Assembly (NCBI GenBank): GCA_026414765.1
Contig: JAOAIJ010000046.1
Coordinates: forward strand, 1-64,000
Reading direction: 5' to 3'
Source of the DNA: Clostridia bacterium
GTDB lineage: Bacteria > Bacillota > Clostridia > Acetivibrionales > DSM-27016
DNA length: 64,000 bases
Below, piece by piece: positions 1 to 27,541 of the stretch. Each line of letters opens with the position of its first letter. Positions within the stretch are counted from its first letter, which is position 1. Position numbers and translations under genes: made by a program. Below the pieces are notes generated by a model, which saw only the letters and a program-made list of their open reading frames with translations, did not search any database and had not been told where the DNA came from.

Positions 1-1
1 A

Positions 2-12000: not shown

Positions 12001-15000
12001 AAGGGACAGGTTAGACCCTGAAGGAAATTTGGCGGACTACGGGTTTGATTCCATAAGCTTGGCGGAATTTGCAGCCCTGTTGACCAGGCATTACGGAATT
12101 GAAATCACACCATCTCTGTTCTTTGGGTATCCTACACTTAAAAAACTGGGTCAATATTTCATCACGGAACATAAAGAACCTATTGAGAAATTCTACAGTG
12201 AAGATGCTGCACTACAGGATGTCCGCGAGAGAGAACAGGTGCCGGCGGCAGCATTTAAAGAGCAGAGGCAGAATAACTGTGCACTTGAAGATGTGAACCC
12301 TTCTGAAAGCGTACAGGAACCAATAGCCATTATCGGAATGAGCGGAAGATTTCCGGAGGCACGGAATATTGGTGAAATGTGGACAATCCTTGTTGAGGGG
12401 CGTGAGGCTGTCACTGAGATCCCAATAGAGCGTTTCGACTGGCGGCAATATTACGGTGATCCTGCAAAGGAACCGGGTAAAACCAATTGCAAGTGGTGTG
12501 GTACTATTCCCGGTGTCAGCGAATTTGACCCATTATTTTTCGAGATTTCTCCCATGGAAGCCGAAACTATGGATCCAAGACAGCGGCTCCTTCTTCAGGA
12601 ATCATGGAAAGCCTTGGAAGATGCGGGATATGGGTCGGAACATATCCGCAGCAGCAAAATCGGGATGTTCGTTGGGGCTGAACAGGGGGACTATCAGTTC
12701 CTGGTCAAAGAAAACAGCAGTGTCACCTCAAACCATAATGCTGTTTTAGCGGCGCGCCTGGCCTACTTCCTGAACCTGAACGGACCGGTTATGGCTATTG
12801 ATACTGCCTGCTCATCAGGTTTGGTTGCTGCACATCAGGCATGCCTAAGCTTGCGGAGCGGAGAATGTGACACAGCGATTGCTGCCGGTGTCACTCTGCT
12901 GCTCACCCCGGGGTCTTATCTGGCGATGGGTCAGGCCGGAATGCTATCAGATAATGGGAAATGTTATGCCTTTGACAAACGGGCTAACGGGATAGTACCG
13001 GGAGAAGCGGTAGCGGTTGTAGTGCTGAAAAGATTGTCAAAGGCTGTAGCAGATGGAGACCCGATATATGCCGTTATCAAAGGAAGCGGTATCAACTATG
13101 ACGGTAAGACCAACGGTATTACCGCTCCCAGCGGTGTAGCCCAGGCAAGGCTGCTTAAAGGGGTATATGATCAGTACCAGGTGAATCCGGCAGAGATTGG
13201 GTATATCGTCACTCACGGAACAGGAACAAAATTGGGTGATCCTGTTGAAGTCAATGCGTTGTATGAAGCCTTTAAGGGATATACAAAGAGGCAAGGCTAT
13301 TGTGCGCTTACTTCAACGAAGACCAATTTCGGGCATACCTTTGCAGCTTCGGGACTGGTGAGCCTGATAAGTCTGGTGCAGGCTTTGCGTTATGGGACAA
13401 TTCCAGTGAGTCTGCACTGTGAGCAGGAGAACAACTATATAAATTGGAAGGAAAGTCCGTTTTATGTCAATAAGGTTAATAGACCCTGGACCAATAGTCC
13501 GGGAAAAAACAGAACAGGTGCTGTAAGCGCATTTGGTATGAGCGGCACCAATGTGCATATGGCAGTACAGGAGTATACCCGCGAGGAGATTAGTATGCCA
13601 GGGTGTCGGGCACCATACTCCCTACTTGTACTATCGGCTAAAAGCCAGGAAGCACTGCAGGAAAAAATCAGGGATATGATTGTCGCGCTGGGGAGTAAGG
13701 AATTGCAGGAAAAGGGTTTGGCAAGCGTAAGCTATACCCTGCTGGAAGGCAGGCAGCACTTTAATCACCGTTGCGCAGCGGTGGTCCAGGACATGGAGAA
13801 TGCCGTATATGTATTGGAGCAGGCCATTGGAAAGGAAAAATTGCCAAACCTGTTTTATGGGAAGGTCTCCAGAGATTTTACCGGCCAAAAGGCCATCCGG
13901 CAGTATGCACAGGATATGATAAAGCAAAGCCTGTCTTTATCGGCGGATAAGGACAAATACCAGGAAACGCTTTATGCGTTGGCGGAACTGTATTGCCAGG
14001 GCTATGACATGGAATGGAGCCAGCTTTTTGGTGATAGCAGGCCTTGTCGTGTGAATCTTCCTACATACCCTTTTGCCAAAGAATCCTACTGGGCTCCGGC
14101 CCCTAAAGACTACGCCATGACCGGAGGCATAACCGGCCCGGCCTCCAATACTGCCGGCCAGCCATCTATACTGCATCATACCCAAGACTTGTATGAACGG
14201 CATAGTCAGGATAGTAGGGAAACTGATCCGATACTTTTATTTACTGTATCTTATCTTACCAATGTATTATCAAGTGTTTTAAAAATCAGCCCGGAAAAAT
14301 TTGACCCTGAAGCGGGGTTTGGCGAATATGGGATGGATTCTATCGTTATTACGCAGGTAAACAGGGTGTTGGAAGATGCTTTCGAATCAATTCCTGCCAC
14401 TTTGTTTTTCACATATAAAAGTATAAATCAGTTAGCGCAGTACTTTGTAAAAGAGCATTGTGAAAAAGTCAAATTCATGTATCAAAAATTAAATGACAGC
14501 AGTAATCTCATGCTGATGGAGGAGAATGACCAATATCAGACCGGGGAAAACTGCCAAAATCAACAGATGGAGAATGTAGATTCTAAAGTGAAACAGCAAA
14601 ACTTAGCCAATACCGGACGAGATAATCTGGATGCCTCAGACAGTGATATAGCCATAATCGGTATCAGCGGGCAATACCCCCAGGCAGCCGATATAGATGA
14701 ATTTTGGGAAAATCTGAAATCCGGCAAGGATTGCATTGTCGAAATTCCTAAAGAACGGTGGGATTATAGGAAGTACTACCGGCAGGAAAGCGGAAATGGA
14801 GGAAAATCCGGGGGCATGTATTGTAAATGGGGCGGATTTTTATCTGATGCGGATAAATTTGATCCTTCATTTTTTAGTATTTCTCCCATTGAAGCCCGGT
14901 ATACTGATCCACAGGAACGGCTATTCCTGCAAACGGTATCTGCATGCTTTGAAGATGCAGGTTATTCCCGGAAGCTGCTAAAAGATAGCGATGCGGGAGA

Positions 15001-17047
15001 TGGCAGGGCTTCGGTGGGTGTTTTCGCGGGTGTGACTTTTAACAATTTTCAATTGTATTTGTTGAAGGAATTTGAAAGAGGAAATTTCGTCCCCATCAAT
15101 TCCCAAATTTATTCTATTGCCAACCGGGTATCATACTTTTTTAACCTGAGGGGACCGAGCTTGAGCGTTGATACTGCCTGTTCATCTTCTCTTTATGCCA
15201 TTCATCTGGCCTGTGAAAGCATAAAAGCAGGGGAATGCGAAATGGCTATCGCAGGGGGGGTCAATCTCTCGTTACACCCAAGCAAATATATGTCGTTATG
15301 TGTTTCGCAGTTTGCCTCAAGTGATGGACGCTGCCATTCATTTGGCAAGGATGGGGATGGTTATGTTCCGGGGGAAGGCGTGGGAGCGGTTTTATTAAAG
15401 CCTCTTAATAGGGCAATTGCCGATGGCGATCATATTTATGCCGTTATCAAAGGGACAGCGGTCAATCACGATGGGAAAACTTATGGCTATACCGTTCCAA
15501 ATCCCGTTGCTCAAGCTGAGGTAATCAGGAAAGCTTTGGAATCAGCCAAGCTAGACCCACGCTCCATTAGTTATGTTGAAGCGCACGGCACCGGAACCAA
15601 GCTTGGTGACCCCATTGAAATTACTGGGTTAAACGATGCATTTAAAGGCTATACCACACATAAGCAGTATTGTGCAATCGGCTCTGTAAAGTCAAATATC
15701 GGCCATTTGGAGGCGGCAGCCGGAATTGCCCAATTAACTAAAGTAATCCTTCAGATGAAGCACCGGAAGCTGGCTCCGACCTTGATTCACTCAGACATGC
15801 TAAACCCTGGCATTGATTTTGTGAATACACCCTTCTTTGTTCAACAGACTCTGGAAGAATGGAAACAGCCAGTTATCCGGGTTTACGGAAGAGAAGAAGT
15901 TTTACCCCGCCGTGCCGGAATAAGTTCATTTGGGGCGGGCGGAGTTAATGTCCATATAGTGGTAGAGGAACATCAGGGCGATTCCGGAAGAAAAGAGCAC
16001 GGAGAAAAGGATGAAAGCCCTGTGATTGTAGTGTTGTCGGCAAAGAAGGAAAAAAACTTGCGTACCTATGCTGAACTGTTACGGAACTATTTGAAAAATG
16101 CAAATAAAAATCAGCGGGAAGCAATTAAGCTGAAGAATATTGCTTATACCCTGCAAACAGGCAGGGAACCCATGCCTGTCAGGCTGGCATTTACGGCCGG
16201 AAACTATGGGGAGGCAATAGCTAAACTGGAGATGTTCCTGGATCGGACTGGTATTACGGAAAAAACCGGGGTATATACGGGGAATACCGTACCGGGAAAA
16301 GGCAGTATGAAGCTGGTTGATAATGAAAAGCTTTTAGCCGGCCTGTATGAAAACCGTGAATTGGGTAAGATTGCGGAGCTCTGGGTAAATGGGGAAGAAT
16401 TTGACTGGGAAATGCTGTACCAAAATGATTTACCCTGCCGTGTGCCGCTGCCAACCTACCCTTTTTCGCGGGAAAGGTACTGGATCGAAGAGCACCCCGA
16501 TGAATTTCCGGAAGATCACAAAGTGGCCCCGGGTATTGATATGGAACAAGCAGCGGGGACGAAAGAAGATAAAAAACAGAACACCCCGCGAAACTCAGCG
16601 ATTCTATCGGAGCTGTGCAATGCACTGGAAGGCGAACGCCAGGAAATACTTGAAAAGTATATCCAGAATTTAGTTGCTGAGCTACTGGCATATATACCGC
16701 CCGATGTACCGGAACTTGAGCAAGGTTTTTTTGACATGGGGATGGAGTCGATCATGGTTGAAAGATTTAGGGCTTTGCTTGAAGAATGCGTAAGGTTCAG
16801 TATTCCCGATACAGCTATGTTTGATTATCCAAATATTAGGCAGCTATCCCGGTATCTGCTGGAACTTATACCTTTCAGTGAATTGGAAAGCCAGCATATC
16901 AATAGAGAAGGGCATCTTGACGATTTTTTGCTTCTTAACGGGGCAGATATTCTCAATCTGGGTGTGTCGGAGGAAGTGGATCAAATGTCTTTGGAGGAAG
17001 TAGCTGATGGGCTGAGAGTTTTACTGAACAAATACCAGGACTACTAA
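2..17047 (+). CDS. trans-AT type I polyketide synthase, five carrier modules, 5' partial
   Basis: The reading frame is open from base 2, so the start lies upstream of the window. Domains by position: C-terminal end of a KS (2-210); DH (about 770-1640, HxxxGxxxxP near 860, DxxxQ near 1380); KR (Rossmann glycines near 2370, Ser/Tyr near 2750-2800); C-methyltransferase (3470-4220, IGAGTGG near 3712); ACP (DSI near 4520). Then KS (4830-6080), KR (6790-8050), ACP (near 8220); KS (8520-9840), KR (10460-11840), ACP (near 12045); KS (12315-13580), ACP (near 14335); KS (14640-15970), ACP (near 16740). There is no AT domain anywhere, so malonyl units should come from a separate acyltransferase not seen here. 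The four complete KS domains keep Cys-His-His. Each KS is followed by a linker ending in a LPTYPF motif. The last ACP has GMESI instead of GMDSI. The acidic C-terminal tail (16920-17044) looks like a docking segment for the next protein. Expected chemistry is one alpha-methylated reduced unit, two beta-hydroxyl steps and two unreduced steps; the product is unknown. Confidence 0.95.
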   Translation, partial: VPSLNSEVLNPNIDFINTPFIVQQTLTEWKRPVVELNGEVSEYPRIAGISSFGAGGANAHVVIEEYIPKGMEGYQIRVDDKNPAIIVLSAKNEERLKERARQLLTVIGEQRYSGADLADVAYTLQVGREAMEERLAVMVVSIDELVQKLKDFIEGKNDTEGLFRGQAKGHKDTLTALTADEEMQETIEKWIQRRKYGRMLELWVRGAALDWKKLYGVSKPHRISLPTYPFARERYWIPDSKTKPAGSTTANLSTAAFIHPLLHRNTSDLFEQRFSSTFTGEEFFLSDHVINGQKVLPGVAYLEMARAAVEQAAGSLMEGNIGLRLKNVVWTHPITVKEQPVQVHTGLIPEDTGEIAFEIYSEPGVAGSERMVHSTGKVVLRADEEDPVRDLESVQAQCTGKILSGSQLYEAFKEAGIAYGYGYQGIQEEYIGQGQALAKLSLPSSVFDTQNQFILHPSLMDSALQASIGLMVGSGEGKAMNLNIALLFAIQELEILSSCTPTMWALIRLSEGGRSDGKTQKFDIDICDEQGKICVRMRGVSSRTQEGMGQNSAVPDKVYSGAYSEDLAGTIMLVPVWDVESIEKSQIFPYLTDQIVVIGGNEENRSIIGQCYPKACVLEIAPKDTMDEIARKLEVCGSIDHILWIAPYNPLKSLDDDALIEGQNQGVLQVFRIIKALLSLGYADRDLGWSLITTQSLSIHKNDLVNPVHAGIQGLVGSLVKECQNWKIRLIDLEAGCNWPVEDIVTMPPDPRGEPWVYRRKEWYRQKLVPFHCPSLLDQQLYKTGGVYVVIGGSGGIGEAWSEYMIRTCKAQIIWVGRREKDKIIQAKLDRLAALGPAPHYIAADAAEKEALEQAYEEIIKRYSKINGVVHSVVVFSGQVLADMEEERFQAVLSSKVDVSVRIAQVFGKESLDFVMFFSSINSYLKAYGQSNYASGCTFKDAFARQLSREWPCAVKVMNWGYWGSVGAAAGSDDFHIWMERKGIGSIEPVEAMDALNVLLAGPMDQIALMKPTKPSGFEGIKPAAELITAHPRHLPSEIQNMQKNIPERRPPVQDIKPEENLQIKEINSLLCKLLLGQLQSVGLFTQDNQVKLNFKTKTALNNLNDKWLEESIAVLVRNNYLKHDGTAYTLADNAPVKVDEVWEKWDGQKGPWLQDVNLKAQVALVEVMLRALPEILTGKVPATDIMFPNSSMELVEGIYKNNLIADYFNEVLADAVISYLQERLKQDPSARISIIEIGAGTGGTSIKVFSRLEPYRQHIGEYCFTDISKAFLLHAEKEYGPQNPYLTYKIFNVEEPAAVQGIESGGYDIVIAANVLHATKDIRQTLCNAKAVLRTNGLIILNELCDKNLLSHLTFGLLEGWWLYEDQALRIPGCPGLTPETWQEVLEVEGFRSVIFPAREAYELGQQIIVAESDGIVRQKQSPALVKQGADTSTGRPAGYKASQLPGVSSQSHTLPETGKIQRGIDTTDQAAKDFVKETIISKLSESLKLNPDKIDAEVPFADYGLDSIISVKLVQVINQVLCIELDTTSLFDYSSVGQLATYIVSKYKDTIVKTLGQSIKQENSENKLGNNLEEKQPAYPYSKRFAGRRLLREFEMREKEESTEDPVQNSIAVVGMSGQFPGAKDVNAFWQNLIQGRDSVHELPSQYLDQNRYYRSEKQAGKTYCKWGGILEERDCFDPLFFNISPWEAQYMNPHQRLILQEGWKALEDAGYNPKTLANSKVGMFIGAEHTEYSYESFTGSSDAIIASRLSYYLDLKGPAFVVNTGCSSSGVAIHLACESLRRGESSVAIAGGVFANLDQGTLIKLSEIEMLSPTGRCKTFDESADGTVLSEGVAVVVLKSLRNAITDGDHIYGIIRGSGINQDGASNGITAPNGVAQEELISDVYKQYRINPEKITYVEAHGTGTKLGDPIEANALVRAFKQFTGKERYCAIGSAKSCIGHTGAVAGVTGLIKILLSLQHHKLPGLINFNKLNPFINLNGSAFYVSAEPVEWRPEDGGPLMAALNSFGHGGTNVHLVVQEYVPDMTYSNTLKLLNKENAVIIPLSAKSKERLKDYAGKLLEFLKDSAGEDSPVSQKAGKTSSDVSNPTLNLEGISYTLQIGREAMEERVAFLVKDIPELMAKLAAFLEGNKEIDNCWEGQVKQGKNIFRLFTSDEDMQETVEKWIAKGKMKKVAELWTQGFAIDWELFYGDVKPQRISLPTYPFARERYWVSGATAGFVGIAVKNSDIADMIHPLSQQNTSDLSELRFSPTFTGPSETTDTLMFEPVWKEQNVAKETGVSGYAQHIVMLCEMDGISKDNIESMMEGISCIILRSDRGEIRERFEAYAVKVFEVIQGILKGKSDGKVFVQVVVPFQGEGQLLTGLDGILKTAGLENPKLIGQLIEAEAGEDTGGIIEKLIDNRVSPMDSRIRYQGGKRYVSTCEEVDVSQNEASVPWKDRGIYLITGGMGGLGLIFAREIAQKASGTTLILTGRSGLDGEKQMRLTELQGLGARVEYKQADVSEREAVNGLIKSIQEDYGSLDGIIHSAGIIKDNYIIKKTGEEVREVMAPKTAGLVNLDEASRDMSLDFFILFSSAAGAMGNPGQADYSAANAFMDAYAGYRNSLVLSGQRKGRTVSLNWPLWKEGGMQVDKETVKMMQSTGMAAMETAAGIRALYQGLASGRDQVMVMEGCTAKIRGQLSGKALKARADSPKASVKEADRALLKDKALHRLKAFIKEITNLGIEKIEADEPLESYGIDSVMIIRMNQKFDSIFGELSKTLLFEYRTLNELAEYFVENHPQKCMEWTGIGEQVQSKQEERPSPTAGLNSGLPILTSPKKGNMVPVNFSSANSSHMNREPIAIVGMSGRYPSAKNLEEYWDNLKAGRDCIVEIPEERWPLDGFYCPDQVEAAAQGKSYSKWGGFIEGFADFDPLFFNISPREVMNIDPQERLFIESCWAALEDGGYTKEQLSKRYNGRVGVFAGITKTGFALYGPKLWEQGEQFYPYTSFGSVANRISYLLDLKGPSIPVDTMCSSSLTAIHEACEHLHRGECEMAIAGGVNLYLHPSTYIGLCAQRMLSKDGQCKSFGYGGNGFVAGEGVGVILLKPLSRAIDDQDNIYAVIRGSGINHGGKTNGYTVPNPTAQGELIRETLDKAGVNARTVSYIEAHGTGTELGDPIEITGLNQAFRKDSRDAGFCAIGSVKSNIGHLEAAAGVAGVTKVVLQMKHRKLVPSLHSEELNPNINFISTPFVVQQELEEWKRPVVTLNGETREYPRIAGVSSFGAGGVNAHVVIEEYIPNDREMNQIRVDDKNPAIIVLSAKNEGRLKEKARQLLTVISRRKYTDTNLADVAYTLQVGREAMEERLGVTAGSMGELEQKLKAFIEEESNPEGLYRGQAKGNNDTLTALTADEEMREVIEKWVQHRKYGKILELWVKGMVFDWNRLYDGSKPCRISLPTYPFARERYWIPDAVTKAGNMAGNTNTTVLEAENQDYPDAAIQESYELATFEEVWQEQAFQDASNEEIKTMVCFLSDEENRQEAIKEIQAFSRQTKIIFIAQGAAYQKQSKQAYSILPTDRNSYTDAFKGIREDYGEIDAVLYLWALEDTGRIRDYSCIVYILQAVAAAKLKPGRILLAAQFDNGLDRCYAESWIGFERSLGLIMPDTQTAGIYLEVSCEDRKEKIRGWMPRIWSELRCHKTESVLYQGGKRYICKIRPTVIQHGNSLLRTKGTYLITGGCGGLGLIFAGHLARQYSANLILTGRSPLTEEKQCKIKALEDSGSRVIYVQADVCDETAMREGVKQAKELFGEINGVIHAAGLEDVQSILEKDMQSFYKILDPKVKGTIELGKLFEQEALDFICYFSSSSAIIGDFGSCAYSVGNRFQMAYALYGDNKHPRSKKVIINWPLWKDGGMGSGESESSKMYLKSSGQRFLEAGEGVAVFEDLLVQTNIQHLVIAGQPSRVSRFLGIAPREQSSGTAAIAASSLGKGRRKEMKGLNLEQCLEWDLKESVSKLLKISRDRLDPEGNLADYGFDSISLAEFAALLTRHYGIEITPSLFFGYPTLKKLGQYFITEHKEPIEKFYSEDAALQDVREREQVPAAAFKEQRQNNCALEDVNPSESVQEPIAIIGMSGRFPEARNIGEMWTILVEGREAVTEIPIERFDWRQYYGDPAKEPGKTNCKWCGTIPGVSEFDPLFFEISPMEAETMDPRQRLLLQESWKALEDAGYGSEHIRSSKIGMFVGAEQGDYQFLVKENSSVTSNHNAVLAARLAYFLNLNGPVMAIDTACSSGLVAAHQACLSLRSGECDTAIAAGVTLLLTPGSYLAMGQAGMLSDNGKCYAFDKRANGIVPGEAVAVVVLKRLSKAVADGDPIYAVIKGSGINYDGKTNGITAPSGVAQARLLKGVYDQYQVNPAEIGYIVTHGTGTKLGDPVEVNALYEAFKGYTKRQGYCALTSTKTNFGHTFAASGLVSLISLVQALRYGTIPVSLHCEQENNYINWKESPFYVNKVNRPWTNSPGKNRTGAVSAFGMSGTNVHMAVQEYTREEISMPGCRAPYSLLVLSAKSQEALQEKIRDMIVALGSKELQEKGLASVSYTLLEGRQHFNHRCAAVVQDMENAVYVLEQAIGKEKLPNLFYGKVSRDFTGQKAIRQYAQDMIKQSLSLSADKDKYQETLYALAELYCQGYDMEWSQLFGDSRPCRVNLPTYPFAKESYWAPAPKDYAMTGGITGPASNTAGQPSILHHTQDLYERHSQDSRETDPILLFTVSYLTNVLSSVLKISPEKFDPEAGFGEYGMDSIVITQVNRVLEDAFESIPATLFFTYKSINQLAQYFVKEHCEKVKFMYQKLNDSSNLMLMEENDQYQTGENCQNQQMENVDSKVKQQNLANTGRDNLDASDSDIAIIGISGQYPQAADIDEFWENLKSGKDCIVEIPKERWDYRKYYRQESGNGGKSGGMYCKWGGFLSDADKFDPSFFSISPIEARYTDPQERLFLQTVSACFEDAGYSRKLLKDSDAGDGRASVGVFAGVTFNNFQLYLLKEFERGNFVPINSQIYSIANRVSYFFNLRGPSLSVDTACSSSLYAIHLACESIKAGECEMAIAGGVNLSLHPSKYMSLCVSQFASSDGRCHSFGKDGDGYVPGEGVGAVLLKPLNRAIADGDHIYAVIKGTAVNHDGKTYGYTVPNPVAQAEVIRKALESAKLDPRSISYVEAHGTGTKLGDPIEITGLNDAFKGYTTHKQYCAIGSVKSNIGHLEAAAGIAQLTKVILQMKHRKLAPTLIHSDMLNPGIDFVNTPFFVQQTLEEWKQPVIRVYGREEVLPRRAGISSFGAGGVNVHIVVEEHQGDSGRKEHGEKDESPVIVVLSAKKEKNLRTYAELLRNYLKNANKNQREAIKLKNIAYTLQTGREPMPVRLAFTAGNYGEAIAKLEMFLDRTGITEKTGVYTGNTVPGKGSMKLVDNEKLLAGLYENRELGKIAELWVNGEEFDWEMLYQNDLPCRVPLPTYPFSRERYWIEEHPDEFPEDHKVAPGIDMEQAAGTKEDKKQNTPRNSAILSELCNALEGERQEILEKYIQNLVAELLAYIPPDVPELEQGFFDMGMESIMVERFRALLEECVRFSIPDTAMFDYPNIRQLSRYLLELIPFSELESQHINREGHLDDFLLLNGADILNLGVSEEVDQMSLEEVADGLRVLLNKYQDY

Positions 17048-17097: not shown

Positions 17098-20000
17098 ATG
17101 GCTGTTGAAATGGGACAAGAGGATTATTTATTATTACTAAAAAAGTCATTAAGCACAATTAAAAAATTAGATGCAGAATTAGAAATGCAAAGGAAAGAAA
17201 AAGAGCCGATTGCCATAATTGGCATGGGATTCCGTTTTCCGGGAGGGAGTCATGATCCTCAGACGTTCTGGGAGTTTTTAACGGAGGGAAGGGACGGAGT
17301 TATAGGGGTACCTAAGGATAGGTGGTGCATTGACGAGCTTAATGTTCCCGGGGTACATCTTAGGGAAGCCGGCTTTCTTCACGAGAATGTGGGGGAATTT
17401 GATGCTCACTTTTTCGGAATATCTCCACGTGAGGCTGTAGAAATGGACCCCCAACAGCGGCTGCTGCTGGAAGTGAGTTGGGAGGCGCTGGAACGGGCCG
17501 GTATTGCTCCAAGTAAGCTTCAAGGGACGAAAACAGGTGTTTTTATCGGTATTATAGGTTCGGATTATTCTACTTTGCCGCGTAAGGATATGAATCCATA
17601 TTTTCTTACAGGCTCACTACCGAATATTGCCTCCGGAAGGATTTCATACATTTTAGGAACCCATGGCCCGGCTATTTCTGTAGATACAGCCTGTTCTTCA
17701 TCATTGGTGGCTGTTCACCTTGCCTGCGAAAGCTTGCGAAGAGGTGAATCCACATTGGCTTTGGCAGGAGGAGTAAGCCTAATGCTGTCACCTGCTGCTT
17801 TTATATCACTCTGCAGTTTTAATGCTATTGCTGAGGACGGAAGGTGCAAGACCTTTGATGCCGGCGGAGATGGCTATGGGCGGGGTGAAGGCTGTGGAGC
17901 AGTAGTATTGAAAAGACTTTCAGATGCAATAAAGGATAAGGACCCGATTTTAGCGGTGATCAGGGGGACCGGCGTTAATCAGGACGGTCCCGGCAGTGGG
18001 TTGACAGTTCCTAATGGGACGGCTCAGAAAGAGTTAATCTTGAAAACACTTGAAGAATCTAACGTCTCACCTGAGGAAATCAGTTATTTTGAAGCCCATG
18101 GGACAGGAACTTCACTGGGAGACCCTATCGAAGTCCAGGCGTTAACCGAGGTATTCGGCAAAAAGACGGGAGGCCGGACAGAACCATTGATTATCGGATC
18201 GCTGAAAAGTAATATCGGACACCTGGAAGCAGCGGCCGGTATTGCGAGCCTGATCAAGATTATTTTATGTTTGCAGAATAAAGAGATCCCGCCTAATTTA
18301 AACTTAAAAACACTTAACCCGAGAATCCACCTGGAGAGAATTCCGGCAATTGTCCCCCAAAAAACCATTCCATGGGGAACGGCAGGAAAACCAAGGATGG
18401 CAGGGATCAGCTCATTTGGATTTAGTGGAACAAATGCTTACGCAATAGTTGCCGAACCGCCTAAGGATATGTCTATTAATAATGACTTGAAGCCTGCTTG
18501 TGAAAGGCCTTTGCATATCCTGGCACTCTCAGCCAAAAGCGAAAATGTTTTAATGCAATTGATAACTAAATATAAAAGCTATTTTGAAAACCCAAATAAT
18601 GAAAAATTGGAGAATATATGCTTTACAGCCAATACGGGGAGGACTCATTTTACCCGCCGGATTTCCTTTGCTGCTGAAAACCCGGAGCAGATGAAAAGTA
18701 AGCTTGCAGAGTATTTGCAAGGCAATCCGGAGTCCGGAATCAATGGAGTAAGGGGAAAAGAAAATGCTGATTCAAAACTTGTCTTTATATTTAACGGTAA
18801 AACAAATATAGAGATATGCAAATCCCTGTTTGATACGCAGCCGGTTTTCCGGAAAGCCTTGCTATCATGCAATGAAAGGCTGCAGCAGTTTGCAGATACA
18901 TCTTTCTTGGATAGTGTTCTGATCAATGATTTGAAACAGGATGATAGTATCCCAGGATATATGAAGGATGTAATCTCATTTTCTTTACAATACAGTCTGT
19001 TAAAACTATGGGAGAGCTGGGGTGTTAAGCCTAGTGCTGTTTTGGGAAGTGGAAATGGACAATTTGCTGCTGCTTGCGCAGCAGGAGTAATGAGTATGGA
19101 AACTGCTCTGTTATTCATTTTGGAAAATCAAGGTATTGCGTTACAAGCAGATGCTGAAAAAGTCTTAAACCAGTTTAAGATACGTATGATATCTGCCGCC
19201 GGAGAAGGCTTTATTGAAAAGCAAGAGGCCGTTTCAAGCCGTTATTGGGAAAGAGTCCTTAGTATTGAACCAAAGATCAGAAAAGGAATTGAATACCTTA
19301 TCCAGCAAGGGTATAAGCATTTTTTGGAGATAGGGCCGGTAGATGAGCCGGACTATCAGGGGGATGTTCTTATTAATTCCTCAATCTCATATTTTTCTTT
19401 CCCCTCTTGCGGGAATCCATGGAGGGCTTTAGTCAATATATTGGGAAGTCTTTACTGCTCGGGAGTGGATATAGACTGGTCGGGTTTTGATCAGGGCTAT
19501 GACAGGCATAAGGTGGTATTGCCGACATATCCGTTCCAAAGAAAGTATTTTTGGTGTGATGCCATTCCCTTTAATGAATATTTCAGGAAAATGACGGGGA
19601 TAGAAAGGGAAGAAAGTGCCGGCAGCAGCCTGGATGGCAGGATTATTAATTCTCCCGTTAAGGAAAAACAGATTGAATACAGCCTGAGCCTGGATGCGAT
19701 TCCGGATTTAAAGGATACACATGGAGTATTGCATGTAGGGTACTACTTTGAAATCCTGTACCGGGCGGTCAGGAAAATCTATAACAGATCTTTTGTATTG
19801 AAATCGATTGAATTTCTGAGTGCTTTGATTGTTCCTGAAAAGAGCACACTGAATATGTCGTTGATTTTGCTGGCTAAGGAACGAGGAGAAATAGAGTTTT
19901 CTTTTTACGGATGTAAGGAAAGCAATAACTGGAGCAAGCATACGCAAGGAGTGATCCTGATTGATGATACAAGTACGGCGTTACAGACTTATCGCGACGT

Positions 20001-21672
20001 TCGGGCAGACATTATAAACCAGTGTCAAGAGCAGTATTCCGGTACGGAATTCTATCGGAAGCTTCAAGAGAGAGGGATTCTTTTGGGCGAAAGTGTTCAA
20101 TGCATAGAAAATGTTTGGTGCAGAGAAGGAGAGGCATTGGCACGGTTCAAGCAATCACAAAAGCCGGATACTTCCAATGGATATGAAACCGGAGTCCACC
20201 CGGGTGTCTTTGATGCCTGCGCGCAGTTGTTTCATGCAGCTTTGCCTCAAAGTGCAGATAAAGGCATGAAATATATGGTTACCAGGTGGGAGGGTTTTAG
20301 CTTCAATCCTGGAGACGAAATGCGAGAATTGTGGTGCCATGCAGTTCTTCGAGACAGTCTGCAAGCACCGGACCTTTTAACTGGGACATTTCAATTGCTT
20401 GACCAGGACGGAAAACTGATTGCACAGATAAGCAACGGTCTTATGAAAGGAATAAGCAAGGAGCATGAGGATGCTTTTAAAAAGTATATGGAAAGCGAAG
20501 CGGCAAAAGGAACGGAAGGTGAATCGGAAACTCTGAATAATTTAAGATGCGTAACTTCTGATAAATGGGGAGAGATAATAACCGGCTATTTACAGCACTT
20601 ATTTGCCTCAATATTAAGAATGGAGGCATCTGAAATTGATATAAATGAATCGCTGATGGATTTAGGTATGGATTCGCTGGTGGGTGTTGAGGCCAAGCTA
20701 AAGATTGAAAAGGAATTCAGAATATTCTTGCCTCTGGAATTACTGATTCAGGGTCCGAGCATTCAGAAACTGGGGGAATCAATTATCCCCCTTGTTCCGG
20801 TAGAACCTGGAAGGAGTGACAGCTTAAAGGCTGACAGTATCCATAAGGAAAATAAAATAGATATTAGCCGCTGGATTGTTCATCGTAAGACGAACCCTTC
20901 AGCGAAGATCAAATTATTCTGTTTTCCATATGGGGGTGGCGGTGCCTCGATATATAGAAGATGGCAGACAAAACTGCCTGACCATATAGAAATCTGTCCT
21001 GTCCAGCTTCCCGGAAGGGAAAACCGGATTAAGGAAAAAGCATTTGTTGATATCGGTACGGCAGTTAAAGCTCTGAAGGAAATGATCTTACCTGAACTAG
21101 ACCGGCCTTATGCCTTTTATGGACATAGCGTGGGCGCTCTGGTTTCGTACCGGTTGGCTTATGAATTATGGAAAGAGGTTGATAACAAGCCGAAACATGT
21201 ATTTGCGGGAGGGTATTCATCGCCGGTTATTTTACCAAATCCCTTTCTTGCGGTTCAAAGAGAAAAATTCCAAAAGCTTGGCTATGAGGATATTCCCGCT
21301 CCGGAAATTCTTTCTTCAGCTACACCGGAACAAGCAAAAAAGATTCTGGAAATCACAGGAGGTATTCCTGGTCCGGAAACAGATATAAACGAAGAATTGA
21401 TAAAGGTCTTTTTACCGATAGGGCTTGCAGATTTACAGTTGGTAAATAGTTTTAGCTCAATCGGTGAAGCTGCTTTTGATGTTCCCATATCAGCGGTTCA
21501 CGGAAAAAAGGATATAAGGGTCAACGAACCGGAAATGCGCCAGTGGAAAAAATTGACCAAAGGTGCGTTTAAGCTTCATATCTTGCCTGGAGATCACCTT
21601 TTTCTCCATGAAGAACAGGACCAAAAACAATTATTGGAATTAATCTGTAAGCAACTAGAAAAATATGTTTAA
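17098..21672 (+). CDS. terminal PKS module: docking-KS-inactive AT-DH-like-ACP-thioesterase
   Basis: 1524 residues, starting 50 bp after the preceding PKS behind an AAGGGGG ribosome site. The N-terminus (residues 1-38) is a short coiled-coil docking segment. The KS follows with GMGFRFPGG, Cys199 in TACSSS, HGTGT and NIGH; these motifs resemble cis-AT PKSs rather than the KSs of the previous gene. Residues about 560-800 align by eye with a malonyl-AT (TQPVFRKAL, LWESWGVKPSAVLG, AACAAGVMS, FLEIGPV). The nucleophile elbow GHSxG is GSGNG (residues 650-654), so the catalytic Ser is missing and the domain is probably non-functional. A DH-like double hotdog follows (about 865-1120): VHPGVFDACAQ is present but the HxxxGxxxxP motif is not recognisable. 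Then come an ACP (GMDSL, near 1190) and an alpha/beta-hydrolase TE with GHSVG (Ser1344) and GDHLF, of the GrsT/RifR type II style. It should take the chain from the preceding PKS and release it. Confidence 0.94.
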   Translation: MAVEMGQEDYLLLLKKSLSTIKKLDAELEMQRKEKEPIAIIGMGFRFPGGSHDPQTFWEFLTEGRDGVIGVPKDRWCIDELNVPGVHLREAGFLHENVGEFDAHFFGISPREAVEMDPQQRLLLEVSWEALERAGIAPSKLQGTKTGVFIGIIGSDYSTLPRKDMNPYFLTGSLPNIASGRISYILGTHGPAISVDTACSSSLVAVHLACESLRRGESTLALAGGVSLMLSPAAFISLCSFNAIAEDGRCKTFDAGGDGYGRGEGCGAVVLKRLSDAIKDKDPILAVIRGTGVNQDGPGSGLTVPNGTAQKELILKTLEESNVSPEEISYFEAHGTGTSLGDPIEVQALTEVFGKKTGGRTEPLIIGSLKSNIGHLEAAAGIASLIKIILCLQNKEIPPNLNLKTLNPRIHLERIPAIVPQKTIPWGTAGKPRMAGISSFGFSGTNAYAIVAEPPKDMSINNDLKPACERPLHILALSAKSENVLMQLITKYKSYFENPNNEKLENICFTANTGRTHFTRRISFAAENPEQMKSKLAEYLQGNPESGINGVRGKENADSKLVFIFNGKTNIEICKSLFDTQPVFRKALLSCNERLQQFADTSFLDSVLINDLKQDDSIPGYMKDVISFSLQYSLLKLWESWGVKPSAVLGSGNGQFAAACAAGVMSMETALLFILENQGIALQADAEKVLNQFKIRMISAAGEGFIEKQEAVSSRYWERVLSIEPKIRKGIEYLIQQGYKHFLEIGPVDEPDYQGDVLINSSISYFSFPSCGNPWRALVNILGSLYCSGVDIDWSGFDQGYDRHKVVLPTYPFQRKYFWCDAIPFNEYFRKMTGIEREESAGSSLDGRIINSPVKEKQIEYSLSLDAIPDLKDTHGVLHVGYYFEILYRAVRKIYNRSFVLKSIEFLSALIVPEKSTLNMSLILLAKERGEIEFSFYGCKESNNWSKHTQGVILIDDTSTALQTYRDVRADIINQCQEQYSGTEFYRKLQERGILLGESVQCIENVWCREGEALARFKQSQKPDTSNGYETGVHPGVFDACAQLFHAALPQSADKGMKYMVTRWEGFSFNPGDEMRELWCHAVLRDSLQAPDLLTGTFQLLDQDGKLIAQISNGLMKGISKEHEDAFKKYMESEAAKGTEGESETLNNLRCVTSDKWGEIITGYLQHLFASILRMEASEIDINESLMDLGMDSLVGVEAKLKIEKEFRIFLPLELLIQGPSIQKLGESIIPLVPVEPGRSDSLKADSIHKENKIDISRWIVHRKTNPSAKIKLFCFPYGGGGASIYRRWQTKLPDHIEICPVQLPGRENRIKEKAFVDIGTAVKALKEMILPELDRPYAFYGHSVGALVSYRLAYELWKEVDNKPKHVFAGGYSSPVILPNPFLAVQREKFQKLGYEDIPAPEILSSATPEQAKKILEITGGIPGPETDINEELIKVFLPIGLADLQLVNSFSSIGEAAFDVPISAVHGKKDIRVNEPEMRQWKKLTKGAFKLHILPGDHLFLHEEQDQKQLLELICKQLEKYV

Positions 21673-21787: not shown

Positions 21788-23050
21788 ATGGTATCTGTTG
21801 GAATCGAAGCGATGAACGTTTTTGGCGGAACAGCGTATCTTGACGTGATGCAGCTGGCCAAACACAGGAAATTGGACACGGCAAGGTTTGAAAATCTTTT
21901 GATGAAAGAAAAAACCGTAGCTTTGCCATATGAAGACCCTATAACCTTTGGAGTCAATGCGGCAAAACCAATCGTGGATACGCTTTCCGAAGGAGAAAAG
22001 GACAGGATTGAGCTATTAATTACCTGCACGGAATCGGGGGTTGATTTTGGGAAGTCCCTGAGTACATATATTCACCATTACTTGGGACTAAACCGGAATT
22101 GCCGATTGTTTGAACTCAAAAATGCATGTTATTCGGGAACTGCCGGGTTTCAGATGGCAGTCAATTTCATCCTATCACAGACATCTCCCGGTGCGAAAGC
22201 TCTTGTAATTGCAACAGATATTTCGCGGTTTATGGTGGCAGATCCCGGTGAGGCACTAACAGCGGACTGGTCTTTTGCCGAACCAAGTGGTGGGGCTGGA
22301 GCTGTAGCGATATTGGTGAGTGAAATCCCATATGTATTTAAAGTGGATGTGGGTGCTAACGGATACTACGGCTATGAAGTGATGGACACTTGCCGGCCCA
22401 TTCCTGACAGTGAGGCGGGGGATGCAGATTTATCCCTGCTGTCATATCTGGACTGTTGTGAGCAGGCGTTCCGGGAGTATCAAAGGAGGGTAACAGGGGT
22501 AGATTACCGGGAGACATTTCATTACCTTAGCTTTCATACTCCTTTTGGTGGAATGGTGAAAGGAGCACATCGCACGATGATGCGAAAAATGACCCAAGCT
22601 AAGTCCCCGGATATCGAAGCAGACTTTGAACGACGTGTAATGCCGGGAATGCTGTATTGCCAACGGGTCGGAAACATTATGGGCGCTACAGTGTTTCTCT
22701 CGCTGTCAAGTACTATTGACAACGGCTGGTTTGAAGCTCCAAAACGGATTGGCTGTTTTTCCTATGGCTCGGGCTGCTGTTCGGAGTTTTATAGCGGAGT
22801 GGTCACACCTGACGGTAAGGAACGTCAAAAACGTTTTGAGATTGAGAGGCAATTAAACGGACGTTACCAGTTATCTATGGACGAATACGATGCATTATTG
22901 GCGGGAAGTGGTGCAGTGAAATTTGGCACACGGAATGTCAAGCTGGACTTCGATTTGATCCCTGGTACGTCAGTTGTATCTGGTGGAAAGCCCAGGTTGT
23001 ACCTGGAGGAGATCCGGGAATTTCATCGTAAGTATAGGTGGGTATCATGA
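21788..23050 (+). CDS. pksG: HMG-CoA synthase-like beta-branching enzyme (HCS)
   Basis: 420 residues, start behind GAGGAGG. It belongs to the 3-hydroxy-3-methylglutaryl synthase family used in polyketide beta-branching (PksG/MupH/CurD type). It condenses an acetyl group, delivered on a dedicated ACP, with a beta-keto thioester on the PKS. The nucleophilic Cys is at residue 114 in the motif KNACYSGTAG. Length and order match the known cassette: it is followed by two enoyl-CoA hydratase-like genes, an ACP and a KS decarboxylase. The 3' end overlaps the next gene by four bases (ATGA), pointing to translational coupling. Cytoplasmic, acting on carrier-bound intermediates. Confidence 0.93.
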   Translation: MVSVGIEAMNVFGGTAYLDVMQLAKHRKLDTARFENLLMKEKTVALPYEDPITFGVNAAKPIVDTLSEGEKDRIELLITCTESGVDFGKSLSTYIHHYLGLNRNCRLFELKNACYSGTAGFQMAVNFILSQTSPGAKALVIATDISRFMVADPGEALTADWSFAEPSGGAGAVAILVSEIPYVFKVDVGANGYYGYEVMDTCRPIPDSEAGDADLSLLSYLDCCEQAFREYQRRVTGVDYRETFHYLSFHTPFGGMVKGAHRTMMRKMTQAKSPDIEADFERRVMPGMLYCQRVGNIMGATVFLSLSSTIDNGWFEAPKRIGCFSYGSGCCSEFYSGVVTPDGKERQKRFEIERQLNGRYQLSMDEYDALLAGSGAVKFGTRNVKLDFDLIPGTSVVSGGKPRLYLEEIREFHRKYRWVS

Positions 23051-23811
23051 ATTATCAAACAATTAAAGTCCGTTTTCAGGAGCCGGTTTGCTTTATACAG
23101 TTTCACCGTCCGGAGGCAAATAATACGATTAATGATATATTAATTGAAGAGTGCCATCAGGTGTTGGCACTGTGTGAAGAGAAGATGACAGTTATTGTTT
23201 TGGAAGGCTTGCCGGAAGTTTTTTGCTTTGGGGCGGATTTTAAAGGAATACAGGAAAAATCGGCAAGCGGGCAACAAACTGAAAATAATCCTGAGCCACT
23301 ATATGATTTGTGGTTGAAACTGGCTACCGGACCCTACATAACGGTTTCACACGTTAGGGGGAAGGCAAATGCGGGTGGAATGGGGTTTGTAGCCGCCAGT
23401 GATATTGTTATTGCCGATCAGACTGCACAATTCAGCTTGTCGGAATTACTATTCGGGCTTTTCCCGGCATGTGTCCTGCCATTCTTAGTAAGGCGGATAG
23501 GATTTCAGAAAGCCAATTACTTAACGTTAATGACTCATCCGATACTGGTCCAACAGGCACATACCCTGGGTTTGGTTGATGCCTACGATTCTCAAAGTAA
23601 TGATTTGCTGCGGAAGCATCTGCTGCGTCTTAGATTATTGCCAAAAAGAGGGATTTTACGCTATAAACGCTATATGGGTGAGCTGGATGGTGCACTTCTT
23701 AAGTCCAAATCATTGGCAATAGCCGCAAACCGAGAAATGTTTTCAGACCCTCGCAATATTGAAGGAATTATACGCTATGTTGAAAATGGGCGGTTTCCCT
23801 GGGAAAAATGA
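23047..23811 (+). CDS. pksH: enoyl-CoA hydratase-like dehydratase of the beta-branching cassette (ECH1)
   Basis: Crotonase-superfamily protein. The start is taken as ATG 23047, which overlaps the HCS stop in an ATGA arrangement; an in-frame GTG at 23038 is possible but less likely. The N-terminal oxyanion segment FCFGADFKGIQ and the second segment GKANAGGMGFVAASDIVIAD fit ECH1 (PksH-like). ECH1 dehydrates the HMG-type branch to a glutaconyl intermediate. The family assignment rests on order in the cassette and on these motifs. The gene ends in another ATGA overlap with the next frame. Confidence 0.88.
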   Translation: MNYQTIKVRFQEPVCFIQFHRPEANNTINDILIEECHQVLALCEEKMTVIVLEGLPEVFCFGADFKGIQEKSASGQQTENNPEPLYDLWLKLATGPYITVSHVRGKANAGGMGFVAASDIVIADQTAQFSLSELLFGLFPACVLPFLVRRIGFQKANYLTLMTHPILVQQAHTLGLVDAYDSQSNDLLRKHLLRLRLLPKRGILRYKRYMGELDGALLKSKSLAIAANREMFSDPRNIEGIIRYVENGRFPWEK

Positions 23812-23912
23812 TATATTTCTTATCCAGTAAAAGTTTCGGAATAAATAAGCTCAAGAGCGGCAGGAAGCGGTTTCATGCTGTTTTATATCTTAAGCCTACG
23901 AAAGGAATGGTT

Positions 23913-24683
23913 ATGACAATGATGCAATCTGTGGTTAATTTACAGGAAATCGACCCGGGAATTGTTCAGTTGACAATGGAAGACAGGGTCAATAAAAACA
24001 CTTTCTCAGAGGAATTATCTCTTGGACTGATTCAGGCATTTGATGAGATTCAAGCTGATTCTAATTATAAAGTAGTGATTTTAACCGGGTACGACAGCTA
24101 TTTCGCTTCTGGCGGAACCCAAGAAGGGCTGTTGGCTATCCATGAGGGAAGGGTAAAATTTACCGATGGCCCCGGGAATGGAAAGAACATATACAGTTTG
24201 GCATTGGATTGTAAAATTCCGGTGATTGCAGCTATGCAGGGGCATGGTATCGGAGGCGGGTTTGTCATGGGGTTGTTTGCTGACTTTGTCATTTTAAGCC
24301 GGGAGAGTGTTTATACAACCAACTTTATGAAATATGGGTTTACGCCGGGAATGGGTGCGACTTATATTGTACCCAAGAAATTGGGACACAGTTTGGCAAT
24401 GGAGCTTTTGCTGAACGCTGGAAATTACCGGGGAGCGGAGCTTGAGAAACGGGGGATTCCGTTTCAGGTGCTGCCGAGAACAGAAGTGATGGAGCATGCG
24501 CTTCAATTTGCCCGCCAGCTTGCTGAAAAACCAAGGCTTTCATTAATTACCCTTAAGGATCACCTGGTTGCCGAAATCCGCCGGGAACTTCCAAGGTTTA
24601 TTGAGGAAGAACTGCTAATGCATGAGAAGACCTTTCATCAGCCGGAAGTAGGGGAACATATTATGGCGTTATTTGGAAAGTAG
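23913..24683 (+). CDS. pksI: enoyl-CoA hydratase-like decarboxylase of the beta-branching cassette (ECH2)
   Basis: Crotonase fold, PksI-like. Conserved-looking sequence starts at VVNLQEIDPGIVQLTM and continues with NKNTFSEELSLGL, FASGGTQEGLL and MQGHGIGGGFVMGLFADFV. ECH2 decarboxylates the glutaconyl intermediate to leave a beta-methyl branch. Start choice: the frame is open from ATG 23808, which overlaps the previous stop, but the extra N-terminal residues are basic and unlike the family. ATG 23913 has AAAGGA six bases upstream and gives a family-like length of about 256 residues. ATG 23907, 23919 and 23922 are alternatives. Confidence 0.87.
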   Translation: MTMMQSVVNLQEIDPGIVQLTMEDRVNKNTFSEELSLGLIQAFDEIQADSNYKVVILTGYDSYFASGGTQEGLLAIHEGRVKFTDGPGNGKNIYSLALDCKIPVIAAMQGHGIGGGFVMGLFADFVILSRESVYTTNFMKYGFTPGMGATYIVPKKLGHSLAMELLLNAGNYRGAELEKRGIPFQVLPRTEVMEHALQFARQLAEKPRLSLITLKDHLVAEIRRELPRFIEEELLMHEKTFHQPEVGEHIMALFGK

Positions 24684-24727
24684 TACCGCCAATAAACAAT
24701 AAAAATAAACTTAGTGGAGGAATAGTA

Positions 24728-24976
24728 ATGAATAAAGAAGAAATTTTTAGGCTTATTGTACAGCACGTTTGTGAAGTGATTCCTGAATTGGAGGGGCATG
24801 AGTTTAAGTTTGACGACCGTTTGGTTGATTTGGGAGCAAATTCGGTAGACAGAGCTGAAATAGTGACAATGACAATGGAGTCTTTATCGCTGAAAATCCC
24901 ACGTGTAGAATTGTTTGGAGTGAAAAATATAGGTGAGTTGGCTGAGGTGATCTATGAAAAATTGCAGTCAGTCTGA
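24728..24976 (+). CDS. acpK: discrete acyl carrier protein of the beta-branching cassette
   Basis: 82 residues with the phosphopantetheine site LGANSVDRAEI. The residue before the Ser is Asn rather than Asp, as in AcpK-type donor ACPs. It carries the malonyl group that is decarboxylated to acetyl and then used by HCS. Good ribosome site GTGGAGG. Its 3' end overlaps the next gene by 23 bases. Confidence 0.92.
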   Translation: MNKEEIFRLIVQHVCEVIPELEGHEFKFDDRLVDLGANSVDRAEIVTMTMESLSLKIPRVELFGVKNIGELAEVIYEKLQSV

Positions 24977-26186
24977 GGTAGTCATTACAGGGATTGGTGT
25001 TACTTCTGCTATAGGGCAGGGGAAAGCGGATTTCACTTCAGCCTTGCTGCAGGGATGCCACCGGTTCAGGAAAATGCAGCGTGAGGGAAGACAGAAGGAT
25101 ACATCTTTTATTGGTGCTGAAATCGATTCGCTGTCATATCCTGAACATTTTTCAAAACGGGTATTGCGGGGGGCATCATTCACTGAACATGCTGCACTTG
25201 TAACACTTGATGAAGCGTGGAATGAAGCGAAGCTAGGTGAAGTGGATCCTCATCGGATAGGGCTGATTATAGGTGGTTCAAACCTTCAGCAAAGGGATTT
25301 GATGCTGACCTGTGAGAAGTATAAGGATAATGAACATTTCATAACGCCTACCTATGGAGTATCATTTATGGACAGCGATCTTTGCGGAATCTGCACAGAG
25401 CAATTCGGTATCAAGGGCATGGCTTATACTGTGGGAGGAGCTTCAGCAAGTGGTCAGGTAGCTGTGATTCAAGCGATACATGCGGTTCAGACAGAGCAGG
25501 TAGATGCATGTGTTGCCATGGGAGCCTTGATGGACCTTTCTTATAGAGAATTTCTGGCATTGAGGTCTTTAGGAGCTATGGGGACAGACCGCTACGCTGA
25601 TGAACCCGAAAAAGCCTGTCGCCCTTTTGATAAGGACAGAGATGGATTTATATATGGCGAGGCTTGCGGTGCCGTGGTCGTTGAGCGGGCAGATTTTGCA
25701 TCAGCCAGGAAAGCAGGTTCTTATGCAAGACTTTTGGGATATGCTATGGCAATGGACGGAAACCGAAATCCCAACCCATCCTATGAGGGGGAGATGAGGG
25801 TCATAAAGAAAGTGTTAGAACAAGCAGGAATGACAGCAAGTGACATTGATTATGTCAGTCCCCATGGTAGCGGTTCGGTAGTAGGGGATGAGCTGGAACT
25901 TAAAGTGATTCACGATTCACGGCTCTCACATGCATATATGAATGCGACGAAATCCATAACCGGACATGGGCTGACTGCAGCAGGTACTATAGAAATTATT
26001 GCAACTCTTATACAGATGAAGGAGTCACGCCTGCATCCGTCGAGAAATCTCATGAACCCAATACATGATTGCTGTAACTGGGTAAAAAACGAACCGGCAG
26101 CTCATATTGTAAAAAATGCTATAAGCTTAAGCTTTGGGTTCGGTGGGGTTAATACAGCTATTTGCATTCAAAACGCTATGATATGA
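24954..26186 (+). CDS. pksF: decarboxylating ketosynthase of the beta-branching cassette
   Basis: 410 residues, thiolase-fold KS. The active-site Cys is replaced by Ser164 in the motif GGASASGQ, the hallmark of PksF/CurC-type decarboxylases. These turn malonyl-AcpK into acetyl-AcpK and do not condense. The two catalytic His residues are kept (SPHGSGS and KSITGHGLTAAG). The start ATG lies within the 3' end of the acpK gene behind GAGGTG, so the two are probably translationally coupled. It is the last gene of the polyketide operon and is followed by a terminator. Confidence 0.93.
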   Translation: MKNCSQSEVVITGIGVTSAIGQGKADFTSALLQGCHRFRKMQREGRQKDTSFIGAEIDSLSYPEHFSKRVLRGASFTEHAALVTLDEAWNEAKLGEVDPHRIGLIIGGSNLQQRDLMLTCEKYKDNEHFITPTYGVSFMDSDLCGICTEQFGIKGMAYTVGGASASGQVAVIQAIHAVQTEQVDACVAMGALMDLSYREFLALRSLGAMGTDRYADEPEKACRPFDKDRDGFIYGEACGAVVVERADFASARKAGSYARLLGYAMAMDGNRNPNPSYEGEMRVIKKVLEQAGMTASDIDYVSPHGSGSVVGDELELKVIHDSRLSHAYMNATKSITGHGLTAAGTIEIIATLIQMKESRLHPSRNLMNPIHDCCNWVKNEPAAHIVKNAISLSFGFGGVNTAICIQNAMI

Positions 26187-27490: not shown

Positions 27491-27541
27491 AACAGTGATT
27501 TTTATCGTCATAAGCTGATGATTGTTGAGGAGTGAGTGTCA

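Follow-up and report, generated by a model that had tools for sequence, protein, structure and literature searches.

The terminal PKS module encoded in the window, by which we mean the whole 64,000-nucleotide stretch analysed (G000:C46:1-64000), closes a trans-AT-type assembly line and contains an acyltransferase (psiAT) from which the catalytic parts have been removed. We propose that the dead AT core of this cis-AT-derived module has probably been kept as a scaffold, with the ACP loaded in trans by an AT encoded elsewhere. According to this model, the terminal module would descend from a cis-AT-type KS-AT module whose AT has lost the ferredoxin-like small lobe, including the catalytic His, as well as the nucleophile Ser, presumably in this order, making malonyl loading impossible. 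The psiAT core would have been retained to keep the KS, the linkers and the domains downstream correctly positioned relative to one another. A malonyl AT encoded at another locus of the genome would then load the ACP. The KS would elongate the chain received from the AT-less module upstream, with release by the TE. The features of the module and its surroundings, all on the + strand, are as follows.

65..17047, +: upstream AT-less PKS gene, open at the contig edge (5660 aa; four whole KSs and the end of a fifth)
17098-21672, +: terminal PKS module gene (1524 aa; KS-psiAT-DH-like-ACP-TE)
17203..18306, +: KS of the terminal module, cis-AT-like (TACSSS 197-202, EAHGTGT 332-338, KSNIGH 370-375)
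18514..18705, +: KS-AT linker (Pfam CurL-like_PKS_C, residues 473-536)
18772..19122, +: psiAT core, N-terminal half (residues 559-675, HMM positions 3-124)
18793..18807, +: NGKTN where GQGSQ is expected (residues 566-570)
19045..19059, +: GSGNG where GHSxG is expected (residues 650-654; Gly at the nucleophile position)
19123..19164, +: 14 residues (676-689) replacing HMM positions 125-219 (small lobe, catalytic FHS)
19165..19554, +: psiAT core, C-terminal half, and post-AT linker (HMM 220-355; FLEIGP, LPTYPF)
20008..20469, +: DH-like domain (Pfam PS-DH, residues 971-1124)
20587..20778, +: ACP (residues 1164-1227, GMDSL)
20911..21654, +: thioesterase (residues 1272-1519, GHSVG)
21788..26186, +: beta-branching cassette (HMG-CoA-synthase-like, two enoyl-CoA hydratases, KS-like protein)

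Inspection of the surroundings showed that the 5′ side of the cluster is missing, cut by the contig edge. Window positions 1-400 and the right end of contig C39 of the same genome (L065) each break within a KS on the same strand, and the 5′ part of the line may lie on C39; a search for sequence overlap between the ends of C39 and C46 found none. The genome carries, in a different PKS cluster (G000:C41:131074-132327), another HMG-CoA-synthase-like gene that shares 80% identity with the window's. Downstream from the cassette and a TetR gene, positions 27536-29911 encode a PEP-synthase-like protein whose top NCBIfam scores, all under the cut-off, were to PEP synthase and the prodiginine ligases RedH and PigC. 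The usual DH motif is HxxxGxxxxP. In the DH-like region of the terminal module (window 19555-20619) this site reads HGVLHVGYYFEI, and FDACAQ is retained. Among 58 genomes of the order, the DH-like region found a match at E 1e-20 solely in the window's own genome, and a search of genome_contigs for a close orthologue of the psiAT-DH-ACP-TE part found none.

The original prediction had identified a cis-AT remnant by a series of motifs, and each of these was present at the residues given: TQPVFRKAL (580-588), LWESWGVKPSAVLG (637-650), AACAAGV (658-664) and FLEIGP (742-747), together with the GSGNG and NGKTN substitutions. The serine of GSGNG aligns with the His of GHSxG, leaving Gly in the nucleophile column. 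However, the further statement that the module keeps the whole outline of a cis-AT had to be withdrawn because about 90-100 residues are gone, comprising the small lobe and the catalytic His. Pfam Acyl_transf_1 scored 35.4 bits (cut-off 32.7) and covered just profile positions 15-120 of 319. In the comparison with CurL (PDB 4mz0), the query matched at 580-705 and 806-937, with 13 query residues standing for 100 CurL residues. An AT HMM of 355 positions built from eight intact clostridial cis-ATs, with GHS at position 99 and the catalytic FHS at position 199, matched the query at positions 3-124 and 220-355 with 14 residues in between. In the published ZmaA-AT structure, residues 226-292 form the small subdomain, which is flanked by Ser192 on one side and by His297, part of the YASH motif, on the other (PMC4207774); taken with the gap in the HMM match, this placement indicates that the small lobe and its His were lost from psiAT.

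Structure prediction had been proposed as a check. An AlphaFold model of residues 476-845, made with 18 rows, had a mean pLDDT of 74.4, rising above 90 over much of the AT core. VIA-align matched this model to ZmaA-AT (Z 28.5) and to CurL (Z 27.7; 306 residues, 3.1 Å). The AT core and linkers of CurL were present in the model. Of the properties of a functional AT, psiAT thus retains the alpha/beta-hydrolase core, and it lacks the nucleophile Ser (GSGNG for GHSxG) as well as the catalytic His (FHS/YASH) and the ferredoxin-like small subdomain. From its sequence, psiAT is predicted to be incapable of functioning as an AT. Chance resemblance to an AT was ruled out by the Pfam score above the cut-off, the CurL alignment and the match of the model, and a sequencing or assembly artefact was ruled out by the occurrence of the same excision in many genomes. 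We also considered an active AT with a shifted nucleophile, in which Ser651 of GSGNG would stand in for the usual Ser. A serine is indeed present in GSGNG, and another copy (L041) has GSGTG, but Ser651 lies at the His position, where most relatives have E, K or Y, and the substrate lobe and its His are absent. The probability that we assign to this explanation is close to negligible.

The excision is also apparent from the distance between the end of the KS and LPTYPF. Among 87 KSs, where the motif was found, this distance was 135-181 residues without an AT, 334-364 with a gutted AT and 439-455 with an intact AT. The distance was 357 in the window and 309 in a more eroded copy (L049).

The terminal KS had been predicted to be of the cis-AT kind and to differ from five KSs upstream. 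PDB scores, phylogeny and an AU test all bore out the difference in kind; as to the number, four upstream KSs are whole and the fifth consists of a C-terminal end cut by the contig edge. The docking style, also predicted to differ, was compared by visual reading. The best single-KS match of the window KS in the PDB was CurL (480 bits), with EryAI at 430 and the trans-AT KSs PksJ and PksL at about 351; the top row, 7zma, was the sum of two stretches and not a single-KS match. For one upstream KS the order was reversed (trans-AT KS 617 versus CurL 336). In a careful tree of 39 KSs picked from 121, the window KS grouped with the KSs of two psiAT modules, L037 and L040 (100/99), then with L063 (96/91), and the group was next joined by the intact cis-AT KS of L080 (99/98). 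L080 provides the sole intact cis-AT KS in this clade, and its branch was long in the 121-row tree. All four of the whole KSs upstream were placed in AT-less clades. Forcing the four-row KS group together with 14 AT-less KSs was rejected (p-AU 0.0011). When only the window KS was forced into a group with all 16 AT-less KSs, p was 2.6e-63, a confounded value because the constraint also splits the window KS from its sisters; the fair comparison is the four-row test. Thus, by descent the terminal KS belongs to a cis-AT lineage, with one intact cis-AT KS in its clade, and not to a trans-AT lineage, as it falls outside the trans-AT clades and has 357 rather than 135-181 residues to LPTYPF. In the KSs of the nearest psiAT modules (L037:7844-10783 and L040:8219-11128), NINNGEY replaces KSNIGHLE and the active-site His is absent; the L037 cluster also encodes a DAPG-hydrolase-like protein.

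A module without its own AT could be non-elongating, with the ACP left unloaded and the module merely handing the chain to the TE. Such behavior would fit a contig on which we looked for a stand-alone AT and found none, and it would also fit the loss of the second active-site His motif from the KSs of the nearest relatives. However, the window KS retains TACSSS, EAHGTGT and KSNIGH, the ACP retains its Ser, and KS-less ATs are encoded elsewhere in the genome, on C23, C31, C41 (in tandem), C42, C43 and C47 (two). We therefore regard a non-elongating module as highly improbable. Judged by their motifs, the KS, the ACP (GMDSL) and the TE (GHSVG) look usable. Because FabD serves as the trans-AT for an AT-less module with an AT docking domain, as described in part of PMC12828459, an AT of primary metabolism is a realistic partner for the terminal module. 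A switch from cis to trans loading, as had been predicted, is plausible on these sequences.

Values of psiAT omega were 0.11-0.34 in the 9 informative pairs among 16 pairs of relatives, and KS omega was 0.013-0.16. Four pairs were saturated, two with the C47 copy of the window's own genome and two with the window; dS of the window copy being saturated, the omega values come from relatives. For comparison, two pairs of intact cis-ATs gave omega values of 0.075-0.135 for the core halves and 0.104-0.127 for the KS. At KS identities of 58-64%, the median identity of the core was 56.1% for intact AT versus 37.4% for psiAT, with the pairs not independent. Omega near 1, as expected without constraint, was seen in none of the 9 informative relative pairs. 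We conclude from the omega values and core identities that the psiAT core is constrained in relatives, but more loosely than the KS or a working AT. This constraint favors a structural part over free decay, although it is no proof of function, and faster divergence of the psiAT core than of an intact AT core would also be expected from partial decay.

The original prediction had described the domain as a fossil. In its plainest form, this explanation would be that an AT made useless by capture into a trans-AT line simply drifts, its frame staying open just because the DH, ACP and TE follow. The faster divergence of psiAT relative to the KS and intact ATs is what such drift would produce, and more eroded copies are known (L051 and L108). 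The low omega in all 9 informative pairs speaks against drift, as do the compact core seen in the model and the retention of the same core in Clostridia, Nostocaceae and Actinomycetota, and we consider this explanation unlikely. Nor is the truncated, Ser-less core a one-off relic, since it recurs in many genomes, also within cis-AT lines, and is under purifying selection in relatives. Because the same gutted form is found in unrelated bacteria, the gutted AT looks like a reused structural part.

The extent of this recurrence was determined by several searches. The psiAT region found matches in 21 of 100 genomes (own genome and relatives). Seventeen further loci, in the own genome and 15 others, were picked for near full-length colinear matches, a choice that is biased toward truncation but not toward Ser loss; in all 18 copies, including that of the window, the lobe was absent and no Ser was present at the nucleophile column. 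With a psiAT profile and 398 genomes of the phylum, the full-length matches among those listed were in the own genome (3) and G407 (3), the other matches listed being partial, as intact ATs give. A scan of genome_contigs with seven related copies yielded 20 named loci (seven Clostridia, five Nostocaceae, six Actinomycetota, one Cytobacillus and one Bacillota MAG), every one truncated and Ser-less; the search patterns select partly for the Ser-less motif but not for truncation. Ten plasmid records had one place spanning at least 80% of the query. All six plasmid records examined were truncated, four having lost the nucleophile Ser and two having kept it (Tolypothrix PCC 7601, GHSVG; Gloeothece, GQSVG). 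Since L063 (G001) lacks most of the lobe and keeps GHSIG, the truncated copies with the nucleophile Ser retained are three in all, and these are consistent with excision preceding Ser loss.

Several of these loci had further features. On the Tolypothrix sp. PCC 7601 plasmid (L128, 2306-8321) the truncated GHSVG AT lies directly upstream of an intact-AT module, and the GHSVG stretches of the two ATs are nearly identical, which would suit a recent excision. One line in G046 (L057-L059, C1:4550000-4609999) has adjoining modules with intact, partly eroded and absent ATs. In Kitasatospora aureofaciens (L116:287-8933) the psiAT module follows an NRPS in which the adenylation domain is interrupted by a luciferase-like monooxygenase.

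The arrangement of these loci bears on how often truncation arose. At all five Nostocaceae loci the psiAT module is flanked by two intact-AT modules, and in the trees the psiAT core falls among the intact ATs that belong to the downstream module (support 99), as illustrated by MIGEGIGEYVAAAIAG beside MIGHSIGEYVAAAIAG. Because of this nesting, at least the Nostocaceae psiATs look like a separate origin. Two Streptomyces plasmids likewise have a truncated AT and intact ATs on one polypeptide. An AU test disfavoured a single origin for the whole set of psiATs without rejecting it (p-AU 0.061, with an older alignment), and in the same AU test the free search missed a better tree that joined the window group and Nostoc (p-AU 0.768). 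A first AT-core tree had placed the window copy apart from other psiATs, a placement that we rejected as the C-terminal half was misaligned there. When the halves were aligned apart, all non-Nostoc psiATs came together with weak support (73), and we therefore claim no independent origin for the window copy. Three long-branch rows (L057_1587, L123_529 and L123_536) were removed from both the AU-test tree and the halves-aligned tree; 24 more rows (duplicates and stand-alone ATs) were removed from the former, and the latter was made without duplicate loci.

A gene pair consisting of a trans-AT-type KS-ACP followed by a KS-psiAT is also found on contig C43 of the own genome and in G043; the best segments were 49.7% and 42.9% identical to the window pair for C43 and 48.8% and 44.0% for G043. 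Because the same pair occurs at these two other loci, AT loss probably predates the window's cluster, and the pairing looks older than the cluster. Closely related KSs were also found beside ATs in different states. The KSs of L044 (intact AT) and L075 (psiAT) are 78% identical, and the KS of L051, with an eroded AT, is 64% identical to that of L044. In the tree, the L075 psiAT clustered with one from a different module (97), making recombination of the AT part at L075 likely. The KSs of L042 and L108 (psiAT) are 70-73% identical to those of L038, L043 and L106 (no AT). It is quite possible, and we offer it tentatively, that lobe excision at similar borders is a recurrent and stable route by which modules stop self-loading, in which excision comes first, nucleophile loss follows and the core serves as a scaffold. 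Such excision would have occurred more than once in bacteria, in both cis-AT and trans-AT lines, and its products would be intermediates between KS-AT and AT-less modules.

There is debate over how AT-less modules evolved out of AT-containing ones, and descriptions of intermediates are few. The truncated ATs can be ranked from copies with the Ser, through Ser-less and more heavily eroded copies, to complete absence, in part among modules with KSs 70-78% identical, and this series makes the route testable. It also suggests a minimal deletion to engineers who wish to turn a cis-AT module to trans loading with the KS and linkers undisturbed.

None of the titles and abstracts listed by our searches of openly licensed papers dealt with recurrent loss of the small AT lobe, and the portions of PMC6164871, PMC11425284, PMC8739492 and PMC4552970 available contained nothing on truncated ATs. 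Sections of a Bacillus genome survey suggest that truncated ATs are binding sites for trans-ATs (PMC5964695), passages of another paper term the flanking subdomain of trans-AT KSs a KS-AT linker remnant (PMC11775670), and AT displacement is proposed for algae in part of PMC4661987. Truncated ATs are already published, PepC being an example, and what is of interest here is the recurrence and the intermediates. In the passages on pepstatin biosynthesis (PMC12081711), PepC, like the window's module, has a KS, a "truncated AT domain" and an ACP and belongs to a working pathway. Unlike the window, that system has discrete NRPS and PKS genes, and the likeness is one of description, the type of truncation not being specified in those passages. 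The mixed cis/trans-AT clusters of cellulolytic clostridia have adjoining cis-AT and trans-AT KSs, as does the window (PMC3250452, in part); the word "truncated" is absent from the text of that paper, and its passages on clostridial clusters include no truncated AT. The CurL KS-AT didomain of a curacin synthase cis-AT module is laid out like the window's module, from the KS through the KS-AT linker and AT core to the post-AT linker, but it keeps GHSxG and the small lobe, such that about 100 CurL residues have no counterpart in psiAT. Finally, AT-less trans-AT modules with a flanking subdomain or AT docking domain are likewise without a working AT and can be loaded in trans by FabD or another AT, according to parts of PMC11775670 and PMC12828459. 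Whereas those modules have only a KS-AT linker remnant, the window's module keeps the alpha/beta core, with about 190 residues more between the KS and LPTYPF.
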